DNA of 64,000 nt. Origin: Candidatus Nitrosopumilus sp. SW. GTDB lineage: Archaea; Thermoproteota; Nitrososphaeria; Nitrososphaerales; Nitrosopumilaceae. Position numbers and translations under genes: made by a program. Location: positions 1 to 64,000 of the forward strand of contig NZ_CP035425.1 of NCBI RefSeq assembly GCF_006740685.1. Reading direction: 5' to 3'. This document shows, piece by piece, positions 36,997 through 40,124 of this stretch. Numbering within the stretch: the stretch's first letter is position 1; every line of letters starts with the position of its first letter. The notes under the pieces were generated by a model. The model saw only the letters and a list, made by a program, of their open reading frames with translations, ran no database searches and was not told where the DNA came from.

Positions 36997-37968
36997 ATGA
37001 AAACTCGATACACTGCTTTGTTTCTAGTTGCTATTGTTTTGTCGATGGCAATTGTTGCTCAAATCGATTTCATACAAACTGCTGATGCTGTAAAAGCTAA
37101 AGGTACAAAAAGTATGAAGTATGGAATGGCTACTAAAGACAAAGTTTGCGGTGATAGACTATGTACTCCTCAAGACTTTACTTCTCCAGGAGAGCGCAAA
37201 TCATTACCTGCATTGAGTGATTCTCACATAACCTCACAAATGGCTATGTCCAAAATGGAAAAATTATTTGAACTTCATAGAATGCAACTTTTATCTGCAT
37301 GGGATTCAATGACAGATTCTGAAAAATCTAACATGATGAAGATGTTTGATAGAATGTATGAAATGATGCAATCTATGGACTTCAAAGATCACATGAAGCA
37401 TATGAAAAAGATGATGGCTGATAAACATCATCAAGGATGTGATTGTGGTGCCGATGGATGTGACTGTCCAGGATGTAATTGTGGAGATGGAATGCACGGA
37501 TGCTCTTGCGGAGATATGAAACACGGAATGGGTTGTAATTGTTCAGAAGATGGAACCTGTTCTTGTGGTGAAGGATGTTCTTGTACTGGAGAAAACTGCA
37601 CATGCGGTGAATCTGGTCAATGTTCATGTGGCGCAGGATGTAACTGTGGAGATGGTCAACACGGATGTAACTGTGGAGATGGTCAACACGGATGTAACTG
37701 TGGAGATGGTCAACACGGATGTAACTGTGGAGATGGTCAACACGGATGTAACTGTGGAGATGGTCAACACGGATGTAACTGTGGAGATGGTCAACACGGA
37801 TGTAACTGTGGAGATGGTCAACACGGATGTAACTGTGGAGATGGTCAACACGGATGTAACTGTGGAGATGATTCTATGACGTGTAGTGCAGGAGAAGATA
37901 GTTGTACTTGTTCTGAAGATGGAGTTTGTAATTGTGGCGAAGGTTGTACTTGTGCATCTTGCCATTAA
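36997..37968 (+). CDS. Exported metallothionein-like CxC repeat protein
   Basis: 323 aa. Signal peptide ~1-31 (ends TADAV). Methionine/histidine-rich middle (~75-145: MMKMFDRMYEMMQSMDFKDH, HMKHMKKMMADKHHQ). From ~148 the protein is almost only Cys-x-Cys pairs in Gly/Asp/His context, including eight exact GDGQHGCNC units. I count about 46 Cys, over 40 of them in CxC pairs, the metal-thiolate pattern of metallothioneins, plus Met/His copper-type ligands. Secretion is unusual for a metallothionein. Copper sequestration or delivery outside the cytoplasmic membrane would fit an ammonia oxidiser, but that is inference. Confidence 0.82.
   Translation: MKTRYTALFLVAIVLSMAIVAQIDFIQTADAVKAKGTKSMKYGMATKDKVCGDRLCTPQDFTSPGERKSLPALSDSHITSQMAMSKMEKLFELHRMQLLSAWDSMTDSEKSNMMKMFDRMYEMMQSMDFKDHMKHMKKMMADKHHQGCDCGADGCDCPGCNCGDGMHGCSCGDMKHGMGCNCSEDGTCSCGEGCSCTGENCTCGESGQCSCGAGCNCGDGQHGCNCGDGQHGCNCGDGQHGCNCGDGQHGCNCGDGQHGCNCGDGQHGCNCGDGQHGCNCGDGQHGCNCGDDSMTCSAGEDSCTCSEDGVCNCGEGCTCASCH
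37648..37863 (+). repeat. 27-bp coding tandem repeat, 8 copies
   Basis: Unit GGAGATGGTCAACACGGATG plus TAACTGT (Gly-Asp-Gly-Gln-His-Gly-Cys-Asn-Cys), eight copies that look identical, in frame. Copy number should set metal capacity and is probably variable between strains. Confidence 0.95.
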
Positions 37969-39724: not shown

Positions 39725-39814
39725 TTAGTATCCGGAAATCAATGTACATTCCATAGAACAGATATTTGAATTTGTGTTGAAATTTTTTCCACAAACTTTA
39801 CAGTTTTTTTCCAT
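39725..39814 (-). CDS. Zinc-finger microprotein, 29 aa
   Basis: MEKNCKVCGKNFNTNSNICS followed by MECTLISGY. C-x2-C and a later C-x3-C could form one zinc knuckle. Divergent from the zinc protein at 39951; the TTAG-N6-CTAA array lies between the two starts. The paired arrangement strengthens the call. Confidence 0.55.
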   Translation of the reverse strand: MEKNCKVCGKNFNTNSNICSMECTLISGY

Positions 39815-39854
39815 GATAAGTTTTAGAAAAATTTTCTATTAAATGCTTTGAAAA

Positions 39855-39910
39855 TTAGTCCCTTCTAATTAGTGGTAACTAATTAGCATGACCTAATTAG
39901 TCTGTTCTAA
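39855..39910. promoter_or_regulatory. Four contiguous TTAG-N6-CTAA units (14-bp period)
   Basis: TTAG-TCCCTT-CTAA, TTAG-TGGTAA-CTAA, TTAG-CATGAC-CTAA and TTAG-TCTGTT-CTAA are joined end to end, exactly 56 bp. Junctions create CTAATTAG palindromes at 39865, 39879 and 39893. The six-base centres vary while half-sites are invariant, as expected of protein-binding sites. The array lies between two divergent zinc microprotein genes, 40 bp before the ATG at 39951. Likely an operator for cooperative dimer binding. Confidence 0.75.
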
Positions 39911-39950
39911 TTTTACCATGGTTTAAATCCATTTTCAACAAAAAAGTTCT

Positions 39951-40124
39951 ATGAAAGATCTTTCTTGTAGGAAATGTGGCGAACAATTACAAGTGTACAA
40001 GAAATGCAGTGTTTGTTTTAAACCAAATCAATTCACATGTGGAAAACTTGGACATACTACTGATGAAGAAATTCATTTGCAATGTTTGATGATGCACATG
40101 GATCATAGAATTCTTTCAAACTAG
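39951..40124 (+). CDS. Zinc-ribbon protein, 57 aa
   Basis: Starts MKDLSCRKCGEQLQVYKKCS. C6-x2-C9 and C19-x2-C22 form a zinc ribbon; a second cluster C30, H35, H42, C45, H49, H52 may bind another metal. It is downstream of the TTAG-N6-CTAA array and so probably regulated by it. Convergent with the gene at 40147. Confidence 0.7.
   Translation: MKDLSCRKCGEQLQVYKKCSVCFKPNQFTCGKLGHTTDEEIHLQCLMMHMDHRILSN

Follow-up and report, generated by a model that had tools for sequence, protein, structure and literature searches.

Genes and promoter elements at the locus

Within the window, the 64,000-nucleotide stretch of the Candidatus Nitrosopumilus sp. SW genome that was analysed, positions 39855-39910 hold four TTAG-N6-CTAA units, all exact and arranged head-to-tail with a period of 14 bp (Table 1). 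The array lies exactly midway between two divergent promoters of Cys-rich microprotein genes, and each side has the same layout of array, 11-nt spacer, TTTAA TATA box, 24 nt and ATG. It is an element of a bidirectional archaeal promoter and is shared by the two divergent genes. A distance of 24 nt between TTTAA and ATG suggests leaderless mRNAs, and on this basis the mRNA of the 57-aa gene is probably leaderless.

Both microprotein genes look real. Residues C6, C9, C19, C22, C30, H42 and C45 of the 57-aa protein are invariant among its homologues, and the 29-aa protein ends in CSMECTLISGY in several Nitrosopumilus species, with high-scoring protein matches in three genomes of the genus, all three of which also carry the array. 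The 29-aa gene is below the size limit of most gene callers. We only infer zinc binding by the two proteins from their Cys/His patterns, and the microproteins may bind either zinc or iron. A structural model of the 57-aa protein had a mean pLDDT of 68 and found no match in the PDB at E below 0.1, and no family for the microproteins or for the 92-aa membrane protein described below is present in Pfam and NCBIfam (for the 29-aa protein, NCBIfam alone). Approximately 2 kb from the array, the ORF at positions 36997-37968 of the plus strand encodes about nine tandem CNCGDGQHG-type repeats, and this Cys-rich product is possibly metal-binding.

Table 1. Positions of the array, its promoters and the array-bearing genes in this genome and in other families.
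Feature	Position or locus	Strand	Remarks
29-aa Cys-rich microprotein gene	39725-39814	-	MEKNCKVCGKNFNTNSNICSMECTLISGY; ATG 24 nt past TTTAA; kept in several species
Minus-promoter TATA box	39838-39843	-	TTTAAT (in TTTAATA)
11-nt spacer, array to minus TATA box	39844-39854	-	TTTTCAAAGCA
Unit 1	39855-39868	.	TTAGTCCCTTCTAA; proximal unit for left (minus) gene
Unit 2	39869-39882	.	TTAGTGGTAACTAA
Unit 3	39883-39896	.	TTAGCATGACCTAA
Unit 4	39897-39910	.	TTAGTCTGTTCTAA; proximal unit for right (plus) gene
11-nt spacer, array to plus TATA box	39911-39921	+	TTTTACCATGG; would hold the BRE
Plus-promoter TATA box	39922-39927	+	TTTAAA (in TTTAAAT); spacing matches relatives
57-aa Cys-rich microprotein gene	39951-40124	+	ATG 24 nt past TTTAA
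Single unit at microprotein paralogue	219157		11-nt spacing
DtxR-B	709031-709459	+	own-genome copy
Array at VOC-fold gene	1376374		one mismatch
Second array of the genome	1440695		promoter of 92-aa membrane protein gene
FTR1-DtxR-B operons, family f4	G062, G078, G088, G096		four operons, FTR1 leading
DtxR-B alone, family f4	G096		
FeoB, family f4	G078		PF02421, 2e-57
FTR1-FtrD, family f4	G088		
ZIP transporter, family f8			
PhnD-type ABC transporters, families f2 and f3			
TFB-like proteins, family f2, perhaps also f3	L057, L226, L252		
PhoU-domain protein, family f3			

The tandem as the meaningful unit

From base composition, a four-unit tandem is expected about 1e-13 times per window and a two-unit tandem about 0.002 times per genome, and the exact 14-bp periodicity with invariant half-sites that the original prediction described is far above chance. 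Six single units occur in the window as compared to 1.15 expected, and six or more were seen in none of 100 shuffles. In the genome as a whole (1.5 Mb), the single unit shows no enrichment, with 38 occurrences versus 99 of the reversed pattern, and for this reason single units were rejected as sites. Tandem pairs with at most one mismatch are enriched genome-wide (5, versus 0 in the control), and the few that exist are promoter-bound. Because single units form the background and tandem pairs rise above it, the tandem, rather than the 14-mer, is the meaningful unit.

The centres of the four units were described as varying, and selection rather than recent duplication was offered as the explanation; both statements are accurate for the window copy, but not for some relatives, in which the centres are near-identical (TTGCGT four times in G006, ATTCAC four times in G047 and runs of GACGCG in G056), indicating that arrays do grow by duplication. 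The centres are constrained rather than free, as seen in the unit nearest the promoter of the 92-aa gene, whose centre ends with a T in 49 of 50 cases and has a purine at the penultimate position in all 50. Growth by duplication would suit an array that is a neutral tandem repeat or the remnant of a mobile element. We consider this origin hardly credible, as it is refuted by conservation: the distances to the TATA box and the ATG are fixed in dozens of species, half-sites have been conserved while centres diverged, and, in a set of 84,980 genomes, triple arrays are nearly confined to ammonia-oxidising archaea.

Conservation in the genus and beyond

Loci for the conservation analysis were fetched by protein and not by array, so that possession of an array did not influence the sampling. 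Of 100 relatives searched, 54 encode the 92-aa membrane protein, and all 54 belong to the same genus. The 51 promoters of this gene that were read contain 140 units, where 0.25 are expected on shuffles, and the array is kept in 50 of them, with a unit starting at -54 in 50 and at -68 in 48. The exact arrangement of unit, 11 nt, TATA box, 24 nt and ATG recurs in 46 of the 51, so that in these promoters, as in each of the two that flank the array in the window, the site lies upstream of BRE/TATA at a constrained spacing. Further upstream, clusters occur at distances of 35 or 49 bp, which equal 14 or 28 bp plus 21 bp; as 21 bp is two helical turns, these spacings preserve the helical phase, and the additional phased sites reach -117. 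Among 19 close microprotein homologues (L140-L158), units are present in 18 and the remaining promoter is masked by N, giving 18 of 18 readable cases, whereas the array is absent from 11 distant homologues (L159-L169), which serve as a negative control. Genus-wide conservation and fixed TATA and ATG spacing therefore back the proposal that this divergent promoter contains protein contacts under selection.

Three-unit arrays were found at 25 loci among the 84,980 genomes. Twenty belong to Nitrosopumilus, Nitrosomarinus, Nitrosopumilaceae or Thaumarchaeota and one to a further archaeon, and the rest are from three Lachnospiraceae (L074, L083, L084) and one Succinivibrio (L081). Almost all units in these last four are TTAGC-N4-GCTAA with the same 14-bp period, and they probably belong to a different regulator with the same spacing. 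Three IMG/VR viral contigs (L097, L098, L099) share a common three-unit array, TTAGGCAGTACTAATTAGGTCAAGCTAATTAGGCAGTACTAA.

Genes associated with arrays

In the genome itself, units at the 11-nt spacing precede both window genes, the 92-aa gene, the VOC-fold gene and a microprotein paralogue. Ferritin was rejected as a general target, as only 1 of approximately 27 ferritin promoters read in the genus has an array; that gene (L241:1571-2083, plus strand, in G034) differs from other ferritins of the genus in having a two-unit array upstream of the TATA region.

The geometry is different in families f2, f3, f4 and f8 of the same order, where nearly every array begins 0-8 nt past the TATA box and the start codon follows -1 to 21 nt downstream; in Nitrosopumilus, by contrast, the TATA box is 11 nt and the ATG 40 nt downstream of the array. 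Placement between TATA and ATG would be a repressor geometry. All seven arrays of f4 are at iron genes, five of them at a DtxR-B operon or gene. Among iron genes with arrays, f4 contributes FTR1, FeoB and DtxR-B, and the own genus contributes the single ferritin promoter. The FTR1 gene of G089 was rejected as a target, the array there being 2 nt upstream of an adjoining HTH-like gene. Some array genes outside f4 are not obviously iron-related, namely those for PhnD-type ABC, TFB-like and PhoU-like proteins. The TFB-like genes would place a basal transcription factor paralogue under metal control.

DtxR-B as candidate regulator

The genome encodes two DtxR-family (PF01325) proteins, DtxR-A and DtxR-B, and the latter groups with full support in the clade found in the array operons of f4. 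DtxR-B copies with high scores, of about 230 bits or above, are found in f1, f2, f3, f4 and f8, which are exactly the array-bearing families; 12 other families have no array, and four of these have divergent DtxR-B copies (178-206 bits). The chance of this split is 1 in 6188 if families are independent, although shared ancestry within one clade is a possible source of it. DtxR-B was found among DtxR, ScaR, SloR and IdeR chains. Residues C103, E106 and H107 are invariant, the motif EMYL is present in most members, and Pro and Gln stand at the positions of IdeR Pro39 and Gln43. We take the Cys-Glu-His set to correspond to the C-terminal metal-ligand positions of DtxR. By its sequence, DtxR-B is a DtxR-family regulator with iron-type ligands and recognition helix. 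Its NCBIfam scores fall below the MntR and DtxR cut-offs alike, so manganese is possible, but iron is the metal we favour.

A single IdeR dimer recognises TTAGGNNNNCCTAA, with T permitted as the first base of CCTAA (PMC8464063). The outer TTAG/CTAA of this site is always matched by the units described here. The inner G, position 5 of the half-site, is present in 74% of half-sites in other families and in 19% in the own genus; half-sites of other families fit the IdeR site, whereas those of the own genus fit it only in the outer bases. This drift would be expected if another protein binds in Nitrosopumilus, and the candidates are all encoded in the genome: DtxR-A, a protein of the Fur family near 1378500, the TrmB-family protein on the same strand as DtxR-B, or else a further factor. 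We judge such a binder unlikely, as DtxR-B is the only one observed in operons that bear an array (five of the seven arrays in f4) and its high-scoring copies match the array-bearing families. DtxR-A, in addition, has Lys at the IdeR Gln43 position and metal ligands that are MntR-like. It is likely that DtxR-B binds the array, whichever sign its effect has.

Autoregulation of DtxR-B in the own genus was rejected, as no unit is present upstream of its gene. In the own genome (L053:4244-5475) it is immediately preceded by a co-directional TrmB-family gene, and judged by the sequence just upstream this holds in most genomes of the genus that were read. The two regulators may act together.

Proposed mechanism

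We regard the array as probably four dimer sites, side by side, for a metal-dependent regulator of the DtxR/IdeR family, most likely DtxR-B, that would be ancestrally repressing and activator-like in Nitrosopumilus. Half-site centres are 10 bp, or one helical turn, apart, as a single winged-helix dimer would need, and the 14-bp period corresponds to 1.33 turns, so that each successive dimer would be rotated by about 120°. This rotation would enable dimers to wind round the DNA without clashing and to bind cooperatively, and metal-loaded DtxR-B dimers may fill the array in this manner. Cooperative binding would fit the enrichment of tandems only and the helical phasing of the 14-bp and 35/49-bp spacings. 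In the ancestral state, represented by the other families, metal-loaded regulator bound between the TATA box and the start codon would block RNA polymerase at iron uptake genes and repress FTR1, FeoB and DtxR-B itself. In Nitrosopumilus, the array has an activator-like position just upstream of BRE/TATA, at a constant distance of 11 nt, and dimers there would adjoin the TFB footprint and could help recruitment at the genes for the Cys-rich microproteins, the 92-aa membrane protein and the VOC-fold protein.

DtxR-B might instead bind and repress in Nitrosopumilus by blocking TFB/TBP, with its genes expressed under metal scarcity. Repression by this clade is what we propose for other families, and the array abuts the BRE region; nevertheless, an invariant 11-nt spacing and phased sites up to -117 exceed what a steric block needs, and the archaeal precedent TrmBL1 activates from the upstream side. 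Repression is rather unlikely, and that DtxR-B both binds and activates is moderately likely, although the targets in the own genus are not classical iron genes, its DtxR-B promoter lacks an array and few of its half-sites retain the IdeR G. A possible, more tentative extension of the activation model is that a repressing operator for a DtxR-type iron sensor switched from the downstream to the upstream side of the TATA box in Nitrosopumilus, becoming an activating array of helical dimer oligomers, and that control passed from iron uptake genes to those for Cys-rich microproteins (29-61 aa) and a genus-specific membrane protein, which would handle or spare metal.

The original prediction did not name a regulator and did not cover the TATA geometry, the wider regulon or the connection with iron genes. 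Seawater low in metals is home to abundant ammonia-oxidising archaea, and our literature search found no paper on their iron regulation, on a metal regulon or on this motif. The array defines a specific regulon, suggests which protein may regulate it and provides a short DNA probe, and it brings to light conserved microproteins for which family models are lacking. It is also a natural case in which one type of operator changes sides of the TATA box between families.

Comparison with known systems

The units resemble the IdeR/DtxR boxes of Actinobacteria, which are likewise 14-bp inverted repeats of the TTAG/CTAA type (PMC8464063). IdeR activates mycobacterial bfrB from four tandem upstream iron boxes, comparable to the row of units upstream of genes that would be activated here, and it represses from promoter-overlapping boxes, as at iron uptake genes, much as we propose for the other families (PMC9132128). 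Position also sets the sign of regulation for TrmBL1 and similar dual regulators of Pyrococcus, as TrmBL1 activates when its site is upstream of BRE/TATA and represses when it is downstream; however, its family is unrelated, its motif is TATCAC-N5-GTGATA and its description includes no tandem arrays (PMC4706686). In contrast to IdeR boxes, the units described here abut head-to-tail at an exact 14-bp period in archaeal BRE/TATA promoters, and those of the own genus mostly lack the inner G/C of IdeR. Within the archaea, Idr1, Idr2 and SirR of Halobacterium are DtxR-family metal regulators, for which we know of no tandem 14-bp array or upstream-activating geometry. The targets also differ from those of IdeR, being Cys-rich microproteins and a genus-specific membrane protein, and here one array serves two divergent promoters. 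The array is a real regulatory element throughout the genus and looks like an archaeal variant, a new one, of the iron-box type.
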